33,911 nucleotides of DNA from an uncultured Hyphomonadaceae bacterium (GTDB taxonomy: Bacteria; Pseudomonadota; Alphaproteobacteria; Caulobacterales; Maricaulaceae). Location of the stretch: NCBI GenBank assembly GCA_913058335.1, contig CAJXPX010000020.1, positions 1 to 33,911 on the forward strand. Reading direction: 5' to 3'. Below, piece after piece: positions 21,470 to 29,246 of the stretch. How positions within the stretch are numbered: the stretch's first letter is position 1; every line of letters begins with the position of its first letter. The notes beneath the pieces were generated by a model. The model was given only the letters and a program-made list of their open reading frames with translations. It was not told the DNA's origin and ran no database searches. A program made the translations under genes and the position numbers.

Positions 21470-22570
21470 ATGATTTTGATGTCCGCACAGGCTTTCCCAC
21501 CCCGTTCCGGAGGCATTCAAACCTTGATGGACGGGTTTGCGCGTGCCGCCGCCAAACACGAAGAGGTTGTTGTCTATGCAGATGGAGACCGCAAAGCAGC
21601 GGCCTATGACCGGGGAGCGGGCGCGCCCTATACGGTTCGCCGTTTCAGCGGTCTGAAACAATGGCGTAGACGGAATAAAGCTTCCGCGATTAAACGCTTC
21701 TGTGAGAATAATTCCGTGAGCCGCCTTGTCTGCGATAGCTGGAAAAGCGCAGAGTTCCTTTCAACGGATATAGGCGTTCCTCTGCTCGTTTACGCCCATG
21801 GCAATGAATTTCCCCAAGACCCTAACAGCAGCAAAACGGCGCGAATCATGCGGTCGTTGGAAAAGGCGGATCACATCATTGCCGTCTCGTCGCAAACGGC
21901 GCTTCGTGTACAGGCCTATCTGCCCCATAGCGGGGGACCAAAACTGCATGTGAGGGCTAATCCCGTTTCGGAGCCCGACGCCGCAATGCAGGCTGATAAA
22001 CTCTTTGCCGAAAATCTTTGGCCGTCGAGCGGAACGCGCCTTCTCGCGCTTTGTCGCCTCGTCGATTGGAAAGGCATTGATGTGGCGATTACCGCGCTTC
22101 GCCAATTATCTCTGAAAGATATTAAGGCCCAGATGGTGATTGCCGGGACCGGCCCGGATCTGGGGAGATTAAAAGATATTGTCGAAAGTTCAGATATGTC
22201 AGACCGCGTTACTTTTGCCGGACGGGTCGAGGGCGGGCGTAAATCCGCCTTATTCGACAGTGCCGATATTTATTTGCAGCCCGGACGACAAATCGGCGAT
22301 CAATGCGAAGGCTTTGGCATTACCTATATCGAAGCCGGATTGCACCGCCTTCCGAGTCTCTCCGGCAAGGCAGGCGGCGCGCCCGATGCGGTTCTTGACG
22401 GTGAAACCGGCCTCGTGGTTGACGGAGAAAATCTGAACGAAGTTGTCATTGCCCTGCAAGGCCTTATTGACGAACCGGACCGTGCTTCCCACATGGGGAA
22501 CGCTGCTTATGCACAAGCGCAAACACTCCTCTGGGACCGCCAGATTGGAGAGGTTCTCGCGCTCAACTGA
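21470..22570 (+). CDS. Glycosyltransferase family 4 protein
   Basis: A 366-residue GT-B-fold sugar transferase. The N-terminal acceptor domain opens ILMSAQAFPPRSGGIQTL, the usual GT4 beginning with a Gly-Gly loop. The C-terminal donor domain contains LCRLVDWKGIDVAITAL, VIAGTGPDLGRL and the E-x7-E nucleotide-sugar motif in EGFGITYIE (Glu280 and Glu288), then GETGLVVDG. These enzymes use UDP- or GDP-sugars to extend lipopolysaccharide, capsule or glycolipid chains; donor and acceptor are unknown here. No strong ribosome-binding site precedes the ATG. It lies between dnaK and dnaJ, which are usually adjacent, so it is a positional insertion. No membrane helix is evident. Confidence 0.9.
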   Translation: MILMSAQAFPPRSGGIQTLMDGFARAAAKHEEVVVYADGDRKAAAYDRGAGAPYTVRRFSGLKQWRRRNKASAIKRFCENNSVSRLVCDSWKSAEFLSTDIGVPLLVYAHGNEFPQDPNSSKTARIMRSLEKADHIIAVSSQTALRVQAYLPHSGGPKLHVRANPVSEPDAAMQADKLFAENLWPSSGTRLLALCRLVDWKGIDVAITALRQLSLKDIKAQMVIAGTGPDLGRLKDIVESSDMSDRVTFAGRVEGGRKSALFDSADIYLQPGRQIGDQCEGFGITYIEAGLHRLPSLSGKAGGAPDAVLDGETGLVVDGENLNEVVIALQGLIDEPDRASHMGNAAYAQAQTLLWDRQIGEVLALN

Positions 22571-22620: not shown

Positions 22621-23775
22621 GTGGCAAAACGCGACTATTACGAAATTTTAGGCGTCGCAAAAGGCGCCGATGCCAAATCCCTTAAATCCGCATTCCGGAA
22701 GAAGGCGATGGAATGTCACCCGGACAGGCATCCAGACGATCCCGAAGCCGAGGCCCGATTTAAAGAGCTAAATGAAGCTTACGGCATATTGTCTGATGAT
22801 CAAAAACGGGCCGCCTATGACCGAATGGGTCATGCAGCCTTTGAACAAGGCGGCGGCATGGGCGGCGGCGCAGGCTTTCAGGATTTTGGCGACATTTTTA
22901 GCCAAATCTTTGGCGGCGGCGCGGCAGGCGGCGGATTTTCCGATATGTTTGGCGGCGGGCGCGGGAGACAAACCATACAGCGCGGGTCTGACCTTCGCTA
23001 TGAAATGGAAATCTCGCTGGAAGATGCTTTCACCGGCAAGGATATTGATATTGAAGTGCCTATCGCCGAAGATTGCGAGCGCTGCGACGGCGTTGGCGCC
23101 GAGCCGGGCGCCACAATCGAAACCTGCTCGACCTGCGGCGGCGCAGGTCGCGTTCGAACGCAGCAGGGCTTTTTCACAATGGAGCGTCCCTGCACGACCT
23201 GCGGCGGACAAGGCGAATATGTTTCCGATCCGTGCCGCGCTTGTGACGGGCAAGGTCAAACCCGGCAGCAAACAGCCTTGGATGTTTCTATTCCGGCGGG
23301 CGTTGAAGACGGCACCCGCATAAGGCTATCCGGCCAAGGCGACGCCGCCCCGAAACGCGGCGGTCCGGGCCAGCGCGGCGATCTTTATATATTTGTTTCT
23401 ATCAAACCCCACGCTCTGTTTGAACGCGACGGCCCCAATCTGTTTTGCCGGGCTCCGGTTCCGATGACGACAGCCGCTTTGGGCGGAGACGTCGAAATTC
23501 CTACCATTGACGGCGGACGGTCCAAGTTAAAGGTTCCCGAAGGCAGTCAGTCCGGCCGCCGGATGCGCCTGCGCGGCAAAGGAATGAGCACGCTGCGGTC
23601 TTCCCAGCGCGGGGATATGTATGTTGAGCTAAGCGTCGAAACACCGTCCAAGCTGAATAAACGTCAGCGCGAAATCTTGGAAGAATTTGCTCATGAGGGC
23701 GGTGATGACATTAGTCCGGAAAGCAAAAACTTCTTTGATAAAGCCAAGGCTTTCTGGGACGAATTAGTGGATTAA
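22621..23775 (+). CDS. dnaJ: Chaperone DnaJ (Hsp40)
   Basis: Co-chaperone that stimulates DnaK ATPase and delivers substrates. The 384-residue type I protein starts at a GTG as [11 protein letters not shown]. The J domain has the HPD motif at residues 33-35. A Gly/Phe-rich linker (about 76-120) follows, then four zinc-binding Cys repeats between residues 152 and 212 ([32 protein letters not shown]), then two C-terminal beta domains with [15 protein letters not shown] and [17 protein letters not shown] upstream is the likely ribosome-binding site. It follows the glycosyltransferase by 50 bp with no visible sigma-32 promoter of its own, so heat induction may depend on transcription from upstream. 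Confidence 0.97.
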
Positions 23776-23796
23776 AAAAGGGCTGCCCGCCTTTTC
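23774..23796. terminator. Probable terminator between dnaJ and the avidin-like gene
   Basis: AAAAGG pairs with CCTTTT (23776-23781 with 23790-23795) around an 8-nt G/C-rich loop. On the minus strand a T6 run follows the stem, so it works best for the avidin-like gene, whose stop codon overlaps its right arm. Confidence 0.5.
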
Positions 23797-24259
23797 ACTT
23801 TTCGGGGCCCGCCGGACGGAAATCGCTCGCGCCTGACGTGATAGAGCTCCACATATCCTTGGGTTCATTCTCGTCTTCGACATCTCGCGTCAGGTGCCAA
23901 AGCGTCCGAATATAGACGCCTTGCGCGTCTTCGCTCATTTGGCCTGTCCAGCTTGTCATAGAACCATAGCCTTTAAAAGTGACCGTAAAGGTGATTTGGT
24001 CACCTTGGATAAATCCCGTAAGTGGAAACCGTTTGGATTTATCAGGCTGGCCCAAGGCAGTTTGATAATATCCCGATAAGGCCCCGTCCGTTTCAATCAG
24101 CGTGACGGCGGAATTTCTATCATTTACCCACTGGCCTTCAAATAATTTTTCAGGCTCTGGTACGGCTTTATTTATTTGAGCCTGTGCGGCCGTCCAAAAA
24201 CCCAAAGCCAGCGCCAAGACCAGTCCCAAAATTAAGTTTGTGAGTTTTTGTTTAAACAC
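23795..24259 (-). CDS. Exported avidin-family biotin-binding protein
   Basis: A 154-residue protein with a clear signal peptide (residues 1-27, cleavage after AAQA) and one avidin domain. It aligns by eye along its whole length with avidin and streptavidin: GQWVNDRNS (avidin GKWTNDLGS), GALSGYYQTALG, FPLTGF, ITFTVTF, SMTSWTGQ, RTLWHLT and MWSSITSGASDF. Predicted biotin-pocket equivalents of streptavidin are Asn46 (N23), Ser50 (S27), Tyr65 (Y43), Thr67 (S45), Ser100 (S88), Thr102 (T90), Trp104 (W92), Trp121 (W108) and Trp137 (W120). Trp79 is replaced by Phe95 and Asp128 by Ser145. There is no cysteine. The start is a GTG overlapping the nhaC stop by 8 bp, so it is translationally coupled to that antiporter gene. 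The family call is strong; biotin affinity and oligomeric state are inferred. Confidence 0.9.
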   Translation of the reverse strand: MFKQKLTNLILGLVLALALGFWTAAQAQINKAVPEPEKLFEGQWVNDRNSAVTLIETDGALSGYYQTALGQPDKSKRFPLTGFIQGDQITFTVTFKGYGSMTSWTGQMSEDAQGVYIRTLWHLTRDVEDENEPKDMWSSITSGASDFRPAGPEK

Positions 24260-25727
24260 CTGAAAACCCCAGAATTAGATAAATGATTGTGGCACCTGCC
24301 CCGGCCAGAAGCGCGTAAGGGAGCTGCGTCCTGACATGGTCGATATGATCATTCGCCGTGGCCATAGAGGTAATAATAGACGTATCGGAAGTGGGACTGC
24401 AATGGTCGCCAAAGACTCCGCCGCCAAGCGCCGCTGCCACGGCCAATGTGACATTCGTCTCCAGCCCCTGCGCGAGCGGAACGGCAATCGCAATCATGAT
24501 GGCAAACGTGCCCCAGCTCGTCCCTGTAGAAAACGCAATAAAGCCGCTAATGATGAAAATCAGCGCAGGCACGAGGCCGGGCGAGAGAAACGGTTTGGCT
24601 TGTTCGGCGACATATATCCCTGTGCCGAGGTCGCCGCAAAGCGTTCCAAGCGCAAAAGCAAACACCATTAAAAGGGCTAAAGGTACCATGCCGGACATGC
24701 CCTTTAGAATAACATCGACCATTTCGCGTATGCCCATTATGCCCTGTGATTTATTTAAAATTACAGAGACAAGTATGGCGCCGCAGACGGAATAAAGGAC
24801 CGATTTGGAGCCTGAGGCCCGGTTAATAATATCAAAGAAACTATTCGGCGCATCCGCGGCCGACGCCCAGCCAGTGAAGATAAGAAAAATCGGCATGAGC
24901 AAAACGAGCGATATAATTGGGATGAGCATATTGCGCGCTTTGGGGGCGGTGGTCTCTTTGGCCTCCATCATGGTAATGTCGCCTGCAATCATAGGGACGG
25001 CCCCTTCTCGAAGAACTTTTCCCTCGCTCTTGGCGCGGGCTTCCGCTTTTTTCATCTCGCCGAAATCGCGGCCTGTTAAGATGACGAGAACCAAAAGAGC
25101 TATGGCCAGCATGGGATAGAAATTGAAAGCCACAGCCCCGACCAGCATTGAGACAGGCTCCTGTACATTCTGTTCTGCCAGCAATCCCATGACATAAGCG
25201 CCCCAGGCATTAAGCGGGATCAAAATACAAGCGGGGGCGCAAGTGCTGTCGGCAATATAGGCGAGTTTTTCGCGCGGGATGTTAAGTTTATCTGTGACGG
25301 GTCGATAGAGCGTGCCGACCGTCAGGGTTGAAATATTGCTCTCGACAAAAATCAGCATGCCTGTCAGGACGGCAAGGAGCTCGACCTTTTTGCGTTGGCC
25401 TTTCCCGTCGGTTTTGGCCGCCTTGGCTTGCAACCAATTCAGCACGCGATTGACGAATCCTTCAACGCCTCCGGCGCGTTGTATCAAGGCGATCAACGCC
25501 CCGATGAGTAAGGTGAAGATAATAATTTCGGTATTATAATTACTTTCAAATACAGCGACGAATCCGCCGAGAGTATCGAGCGTGCCCTGCAGCGGATTTC
25601 CACCCGCCAGAATAAGAAAGCCGGACGCAATGCCCAAAAGAAGCGACAGAAAAACCTGCCGCGTCCAAAGAGCTAGGACAATCGCCAGAACAGGCGGTAA
25701 GAGAGAAAGAAGTCCGTAGGTTTCCAT
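24252..25727 (-). CDS. nhaC: NhaC-family Na+/H+ antiporter
   Basis: A 491-residue inner-membrane antiporter with about eleven predicted helices, exchanging Na+ for H+ or carrying related organic ions. The NhaC signature region GDHCSPTSDTSI is present near residue 438, followed by HIDHVRTQLPYAL. The segments NISTLTVGTLYRPV, STCAPACILIPLNAWGAY and FSTGTSWGTFAIMIAIAVPL are the usual broken-helix motifs. A charged cytoplasmic loop (about 225-260) splits the two halves. The Shine-Dalgarno GGAGAG precedes the ATG. Some family members move malate/lactate or other substrates, so Na+ specificity is not certain. It is 54 bp downstream of the saccharopine-dehydrogenase-like gene and overlaps the avidin gene. 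Confidence 0.92.
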   Translation of the reverse strand: METYGLLSLLPPVLAIVLALWTRQVFLSLLLGIASGFLILAGGNPLQGTLDTLGGFVAVFESNYNTEIIIFTLLIGALIALIQRAGGVEGFVNRVLNWLQAKAAKTDGKGQRKKVELLAVLTGMLIFVESNISTLTVGTLYRPVTDKLNIPREKLAYIADSTCAPACILIPLNAWGAYVMGLLAEQNVQEPVSMLVGAVAFNFYPMLAIALLVLVILTGRDFGEMKKAEARAKSEGKVLREGAVPMIAGDITMMEAKETTAPKARNMLIPIISLVLLMPIFLIFTGWASAADAPNSFFDIINRASGSKSVLYSVCGAILVSVILNKSQGIMGIREMVDVILKGMSGMVPLALLMVFAFALGTLCGDLGTGIYVAEQAKPFLSPGLVPALIFIISGFIAFSTGTSWGTFAIMIAIAVPLAQGLETNVTLAVAAALGGGVFGDHCSPTSDTSIITSMATANDHIDHVRTQLPYALLAGAGATIIYLILGFSGV

Positions 25728-28220: not shown

Positions 28221-29246
28221 TTGGATACGCATAAAGATATTTTCAGGCTGGCTCAAAAAGCGGATATTGACGCCATTTTGGAGTTTACGTCCACGGCCCG
28301 CGAAGGATTGACGAATGTTCCGAATACGCGGGAGCTTGTTAAGGCGCAGGTCGAAGAATCGCTTGAAACCCTGAATAGAATAGACGGGGCAAACCGGCTT
28401 TTATTCGTTGTTGAACGCGACGAGGTTATTTTAGGAATTTCTGCTATTATCATGAAACTGGGCGGAGAAGTCCCGTTTTATAATTTCAAGCGCTCTCGTC
28501 ATTCCGGACGGGCGACAAACCCAAAACTCGCCATTGATTATGATACGTTGCAACTGACCACTGATTTTTATTCCTATTCCGAAGTGGCCTCTCTTTTCAT
28601 GGCGAAAGCCGGACGCGGAACCGGGCTTGCCCGCCTTCTATCTGCGGGCAGATTTGGCTATATTCAAAATAACCGCGATGAATTTCAAGACGGGTTAATG
28701 GCCGAAATCCTCGGCTGGACGGATGAGCAGGGCGTCTCGCCTTTCTGGAAACATCTGGCCTCTCGTTTCATTCAAATGGGATTCGATAATGCGGATAAGC
28801 TTTCGACCATAGATAAACGCTTTATCGTTGACCTCCTCCCGGCGCTCCCGATTATGCTGAACCTTCTGCCGCCCATTGTTTCGGAGTGTACCGGACGGCC
28901 GCATGATAATTCCCGCCCGGCGATGAATATGCTCAAGAGTATAGGGTTTGAGGAAACCGATATGTGCGACGTCTTTGACGGCGGCCCGGCGGTGCGGTGC
29001 CAAACCGATAAGACTTGGATTGCCCGAACAACGACCGCTATTGAGAGTTACGGTGACGTGACAGGTCAGGATCGATGTCTTTACACCTGCGGCACAGGGA
29101 TAAATTTCCGCGCCTCTGTAGGTCCGGCCAATCTTATTGAAAAAATCGGAGACAAACGTATCGCCGATAATATCAGCAACGGATCAGATCCGGTCTTTAT
29201 CGCGCAGATGAAAGAACCCCAAATTATCAGAAATGAGAAATCATGA
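28221..29246 (+). CDS. astA: Arginine N-succinyltransferase
   Basis: First step of the arginine succinyltransferase (AST) pathway: transfers succinyl from succinyl-CoA to the alpha-amine of arginine. The 341-residue GNAT-fold protein matches AstA over its length, with PFYNFK, YDTLQLTTDFYSYSEVASLF, RGTGLARLLSAGRFGYI, MAEILGWTDEQGVSPFW, FDNADKLSTIDKRFIVDLLP and the C-terminal FDGGPAVRC. The apparent start is a TTG, 12 bp after AAAGGA; an ATG at 28208 is out of frame and ends after 8 codons. No in-frame ATG occurs before the conserved N-terminal strand. The stop overlaps astB in an ATGA junction. Confidence 0.93.
   Translation: MDTHKDIFRLAQKADIDAILEFTSTAREGLTNVPNTRELVKAQVEESLETLNRIDGANRLLFVVERDEVILGISAIIMKLGGEVPFYNFKRSRHSGRATNPKLAIDYDTLQLTTDFYSYSEVASLFMAKAGRGTGLARLLSAGRFGYIQNNRDEFQDGLMAEILGWTDEQGVSPFWKHLASRFIQMGFDNADKLSTIDKRFIVDLLPALPIMLNLLPPIVSECTGRPHDNSRPAMNMLKSIGFEETDMCDVFDGGPAVRCQTDKTWIARTTTAIESYGDVTGQDRCLYTCGTGINFRASVGPANLIEKIGDKRIADNISNGSDPVFIAQMKEPQIIRNEKS

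Follow-up and report, generated by a model that had tools for sequence, protein, structure and literature searches.

An avidin relative that overlaps an NhaC-family transporter gene in a predicted desthiobiotin auxotroph of the Hyphomonadaceae, and its possible role in vitamin capture

The role of avidins in bacteria is an open question that is usually answered with defense or competition, and one proposal for bacterial avidins, streptavidin included, is that they starve competitors of biotin. Dimeric avidins of the rhizavidin type lack the neighbor-subunit Trp. According to the main text of Laitinen et al. 2021 (PMC8033661), avidins are widespread in bacteria, and those surveyed carry a signal peptide in about half of the cases and fall into eleven clades; the avidin family itself is therefore not new. 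The same main text names Maricaulis sp. once and contains neither the words lipoprotein and antiporter nor any word beginning with Hyphomonad-, Robiginitomac-, auxotroph- or scaveng-. A second described system is that of the desthiobiotin auxotrophs, marine bacteria with an orphan bioB gene that grow on desthiobiotin, as described in the main text of Wienhausen et al. 2022 (PMC9561691), where no word starting with avidin occurs.

Membership in the avidin family

We analyzed a stretch of 33,911 nucleotides from an uncultured Hyphomonadaceae bacterium (contig CAJXPX010000020.1 of assembly GCA_913058335.1), called the window here. An uninterrupted reading frame on its minus strand, positions 23795-24259, begins with GTG and encodes 154 residues, as an earlier note made from the DNA letters had it, and the product is a genuine relative of avidin and streptavidin. 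The note had called it an exported avidin homologue and proposed a profile search and a structure prediction. Both agree with that description, and the leader is export-like. Residues 40-147 scored 72 bits with the Pfam Avidin profile (PF01382; E 7.2e-20), whose cut-off is 24, and no other family was found. Phmmer related the protein to chicken avidin (1avd, E 4.9e-5) and streptavidin (1stp, E 7.8e-4), and in a sequence search of the PDB 160 distinct chains reached E<=1. First among them was 2c4i (E 2.1e-8), a long avidin chain with a score from three stretches; the best ordinary match was wilavidin (E 2.5e-7). With 24.7 bits against a cut-off of 300, the protein is not a streptavidin by the NCBIfam equivalog NF047623. 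A single avidin copy was detected in the window's genome.

An AlphaFold2 model built with five sequences predicts an N-terminal helix (residues 2-27) followed by eight strands (best of five models: mean pLDDT 79.1, pTM 0.65; other four 62-72), and these strands would form the eight-stranded antiparallel beta-barrel of avidins. The best 50 of 146 Foldseek matches with E<=0.001 were all avidins, shwanavidin first. Shwanavidin, wilavidin and xenavidin were among the best matches by both fold and sequence, with 24-32% identity in the fold alignments. The model is moderate, because the listed matches have TM-scores of 0.63-0.75 by target and rmsd values of 3.5-5.2; it suffices for the fold and not for pocket geometry. 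Pfam, model and alignment together place the barrel at residues 42-149 (positions 23813-24136, minus strand), where it holds the pocket residues.

The protein shares with streptavidin and chicken avidin the eight-stranded barrel, nine of eleven compared biotin-contact residues (N46, S50, Y65, T67, S100, T102, W104, W121 and W137) and, with W137 equivalent to Trp120, the neighbor-subunit Trp. It differs from them in having Phe (F95) for streptavidin Trp79, Ser (S145) for Asp128 and a shorter loop before strand 5. These nine kept residues and two changes had been proposed in the note, and an alignment with reference sequences checked against the PDB bore them out. We rejected F91 as the Trp79 equivalent: the loop gap was misplaced in the alignment that suggested it, and chicken avidin Trp70 corresponds to F95. 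Since W137 is present, and Trp occupies this position in 37/37 clade members aligned (see below), the protein does not show this feature of the dimeric rhizavidin type.

Avidin genes occur in 51 of the 137 genomes of the window's family. In a sample of 385 genomes from the whole class, which includes the window's, 6 have one. Hence, the statement that bacterial avidins are rare fails in this family. By score and sequence, the 51 genomes divide into 41 with the window's type of avidin, referred to here as the clade, and 10 with divergent ones. Four relatives from the named collection, labelled Hellea and placed by NCBI in the order Maricaulales, family Robiginitomaculaceae, have avidins 65-74% identical to the window's, and the gene is present in Hellea balneolensis DSM 19091, a named strain that has been sequenced. 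Phage records gave no avidin match. Among plasmids, matches came from 45 Xanthomonas records and 1 Rhizobium record, 46 together, and none reached 60% identity; the surroundings of the Rhizobium match were uninformative. Divergent avidin-like proteins of genus g8 (L142-L144 and L146, in G028, G029, G024 and G025) have no Trp aligned at the neighbor-subunit position and, by eye, keep the Trp at the Trp79 position.

Gene order around the avidin and NhaC-family genes

The avidin start overlaps by 8 bases (24252-24259) the stop of an upstream gene on the same strand, at 24252-25727, that encodes a membrane transporter. Its product matches the NhaC-family profile PF03553, by which Pfam groups it with Na+/H+ antiporters, with 172.8 bits against a cut-off of 23 but the NhaC equivalog TIGR00931 with only 45.2 bits against 370. 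Of the earlier description, an avidin overlapping an NhaC antiporter gene, the overlap and the family domain thus stand and the more exact assignment is not supported. On the other side, the convergent dnaJ gene (22621-23775, plus strand) ends 19 bases from the avidin stop codon and serves as a landmark rather than as part of the system.

We scored NhaC-family orthologues (identity 50% or more) in the 41 clade genomes. In 33 of them, the window's included, the gene precedes avidin on the same strand: immediately upstream in 23, at 400-800 nt in 3 and at 1.3-1.6 kb in 7. It is far from avidin in one genome, on another contig in three, with contig edges in G017 and G033, and was not found in four. 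Among these four is G006, a genome 73% complete in which a contig edge lies close by. For six of the seven genomes with a distance of 1.3-1.6 kb, we inspected the intervening DNA. Five (G005, G047, G050, G052 and G059) have a single intervening ORF, in each case a carboxylesterase by family scan, and G035 has two ORFs, both without a Pfam family. The carboxylesterase genes (L040:2307-3707, L050:1403-2713, L058:6564-7859, L062:3591-4859 and L084:3692-5002) overlap both neighbors in four of the five relatives, by longest-ORF coordinates.

Is the pairing with the NhaC-family gene meaningful? The gene order in the clade and the recurrence of the 8-base overlap in H. balneolensis (L031) speak for a functional link. 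However, four avidin-free relatives (G053, G018, G021 and G015) have nhaC convergent with dnaJ and no detectable avidin remnant around the junction, and avidin stands without an adjoining nhaC in G032, G034, G038, G098 and G107. The unit is therefore conserved but separable. We consider it probable that the link has no functional meaning and reflects an inherited place beside dnaJ and a shared transcript, an explanation that is compatible with a role of the avidin in vitamin capture and with the other readings considered below. Against vitamin capture, no gene with a known assignment to biotin transport was found next to avidin in the window.

A scan for BioR-like sites gave no perfect match, and no site fell in the stretch separating the nhaC start from the adjacent gene; loose matches numbered 49 against a mean of 30.7 and a largest value of 44 in shuffles, and were scattered over the whole window. 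Promoter and terminator scans were near chance (3 vs 2.3 and 5 vs 3.0).

Several other features of these loci can be recorded. G053 (L041), a single natural contrast, combines bioB, bioA and bioD with an NhaC-family gene at the dnaJ locus and no avidin. In the window, a family 4 glycosyltransferase gene (21470-22570) lies between dnaK and dnaJ, and one 57% identical to it adjoins dnaJ in G005. An arginine succinyltransferase (AstA) gene at 28221-29246, followed by three long ORFs on the same strand, is perhaps part of an arginine-degradation cluster. Avidin neighbors were scanned for families in some genomes. Among these, G038 (L155:6949-11028) and G032 (L151:5227-8339), both of genus g9, have avidin beside ubiE/fpg and a TonB-dependent receptor gene upstream of it on the same strand; the two receptors are hardly alike (best segment 22% over 163 aa). 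In G038, a gene for a transporter of the EamA family, to which the E. coli biotin importer YigM belongs, follows avidin on the same strand.

Biotin synthesis in the host and its family

The window's genome, 99.49% complete, has bioB (403 bits) and a biotin-protein ligase gene. Our searches of it for bioD (E<=1e-10), bioA (E<=1e-100) and BioY found nothing, and eight ORFs scanned at bioB (bioB, mutY and a CcrM-type methylase gene among them) held no other biotin-synthesis gene. With bioB and without bioD, an above-cut-off bioA or BioY, the host should need biotin or desthiobiotin from outside. It shares the presence of bioB without bioD or above-cut-off bioA with the orphan-bioB bacteria, and by the scheme in the main text of Wienhausen et al. 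2022 (PMC9561691) it seems to be a desthiobiotin auxotroph.

Within the family, bioD is present in 24 of 137 genomes and BioY in 2. A bioA gene scores above the cut-off in 22 genomes; counting two more with partial genes, these are the same 24 that have bioD. Another 20 genomes, 7 of them avidin carriers, gave bioA-like matches of 340-373 bits, which we took as putative paralogues because they are below the cut-off and these genomes have no bioD. We rejected bioF as a pathway marker, as 135 of 137 genomes have matches at E<=1e-60, paralogues included, and 19 have one above the cut-off.

A firm result is that the clade's avidin occurs almost exclusively in predicted auxotrophs. bioD is absent in 50 of the 51 avidin carriers, and avidin is present in 1 of 24 genomes with bioD vs 50 of 113 without (Fisher p 1.1e-4). 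For bioB, with one partial below-cut-off gene scored as present, avidin was found in 40 of 72 genomes without it vs 11 of 65 with it (p 3e-6), and among genomes at least 90% complete in 25 of 41 vs 9 of 57 (p 5e-6). The association is mostly clade-level and confounded by clade. Genus g12 contributes 18 of the 24 bioD genomes, and once it is set aside the association of bioD and avidin loses significance (1/51 vs 5/67, p 0.23). Permutation within genera gave p 0.09 to 0.12 for bioB against avidin. A test of correlated evolution, on a single-gene DnaK tree with 101 of the 137 genomes, gave p 0.010 when the clade's avidin was the trait and 0.068 when avidins of any type were counted; within the clade, p was 0.26. 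That auxotrophy drives the presence of avidin is suggested by these data. Of the 86 genomes without avidin, 63 have no bioD either, so auxotrophs do not require an avidin. Across the class, 3 of 6 avidin genomes have bioB, and six genomes are too few for a comparison. In the avidin-carrying relative G058, two adjacent partial bioB matches (L141, G058:C3:348782-349181) look like the remnant of a broken gene.

Location, ligand and possible role

We favor, with confidence evenly balanced, the reading that the avidin is an envelope catcher of biotin or desthiobiotin in an auxotroph. The protein would be exported to the cell envelope, where it would bind biotin and probably also the precursor desthiobiotin. 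The dilute vitamin would thereby be held close to the cell, helping a bacterium that is unable to make biotin de novo. Because the host keeps bioB and the biotin-protein ligase, it could convert desthiobiotin that it captures into biotin and put this to use.

Residues 1-27 (24179-24259, minus strand) are a predicted export signal, judged by sequence, the predicted helix and relatives. It ends in TAAQA before a Q, an ordinary-looking site at which cleavage probably occurs, and has no lipobox Cys, so the window's copy is not a lipoprotein by this pattern. Three of the 41 clade leaders were left out, as they could not be read or ran off a contig. By pattern matches on the 38 readable leaders, the window's included, 16 have a strict and 24 a relaxed lipobox, and 30 have a Cys anywhere in the last 35 leader residues; the window's copy is one of the 8 without any. 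By the E. coli rule, a residue other than Asp after the lipobox Cys directs a lipoprotein to the outer membrane. None of the 24 relaxed-lipobox members has Asp there, which points to outer membrane placement by that rule. Leaders ending in Cys in many relatives suggest an avidin that is anchored rather than freely diffusing. Literature searches combining avidin with lipobox, or avidin with lipoprotein, TonB-dependent and biotin uptake, gave no match.

These leaders bear on the usual explanation, that the avidin is a secreted weapon that removes biotin and starves competing microbes or grazers. The ordinary signal of the window's copy would suit a released protein, and defense is argued for in the main text of Laitinen et al. 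2021 (PMC8033661). We nevertheless consider a weapon unlikely. Many relatives have a Cys that is expected to tether the protein, and an irreversible trap would starve first a producer without bioD, above-cut-off bioA and BioY. A released, femtomolar, irreversible trap would be self-defeating, since the producer must itself import biotin. This objection does not apply to a binder of loosened affinity that stays in the periplasm or is held at the envelope. The earlier note had offered both scavenging of biotin and starvation of rivals; scavenging fits a host with these gene absences, and starvation fits less well.

How tightly the protein might bind depends on the two altered pocket positions. 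We aligned 37 of the 41 clade members, leaving out one contig-edge fragment and three loci. The nine kept pocket residues and F95 are invariant in 37/37, and position 145 carries Ser in 25 members and Ala in the other 12, so that Phe for Trp79 and Ser or Ala for Asp128 mark the clade. Invariant columns make up 10 of 11 in the pocket vs 26 of 110 overall (hypergeometric P about 1e-6), a value to be read as constraint within the clade and not as a test on independent samples, because the sequences are related. A Cys within the barrel occurs in 1 of 37 members. Replacing Trp79 by Phe is a mild change; a literature search on W79F with streptavidin gave no match. PMC4888747 puts the cost of streptavidin D128A at 4.4 kcal/mol by calorimetry. 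From the substitutions, we predict binding that is weaker and more releasable than that of streptavidin.

The uniformity of the two changes could also mean that tight biotin binding was lost and that the barrel moved to another ligand or to a structural role, as exemplified by the fibropellins, avidin-domain non-binders according to the main text of Laitinen et al. 2021 (PMC8033661). We regard this as quite unlikely, since the nine other pocket residues are held invariant well above the background and Phe for Trp is conservative. Moreover, the fibropellin-like avidin mutant described in that text lost binding through a double change to charged residues.

Capture and retention of the vitamin are thus favored over a weapon and over another ligand by the substitutions, predicted to loosen binding, together with the likely tether in many members. 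A more elaborate version, in which a Hellea-like clade of the Maricaulales turned its avidin from a weapon into a part of vitamin uptake, is very unlikely. In it, the avidin would be a loosened receptor for biotin or desthiobiotin, anchored in the envelope, that hands its ligand to the NhaC-family transporter in place of BioY, with the carboxylesterases of the five relatives and the TonB-dependent receptors of G032 and G038 as further parts.

New here is an avidin host in which bioB was found and bioD, BioY and any above-cut-off bioA were not, in a family where avidin is common, biotin synthesis is mostly absent and nearly every carrier is without bioD. Scavenging can be tested directly by deletion and feeding, as H. 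balneolensis DSM 19091 carries the gene in a conserved two-gene unit. If vitamin capture is confirmed, naturally loosened avidins would be of interest to biotechnology, and avidin would have to be counted among the ligand-binding components of vitamin uptake.
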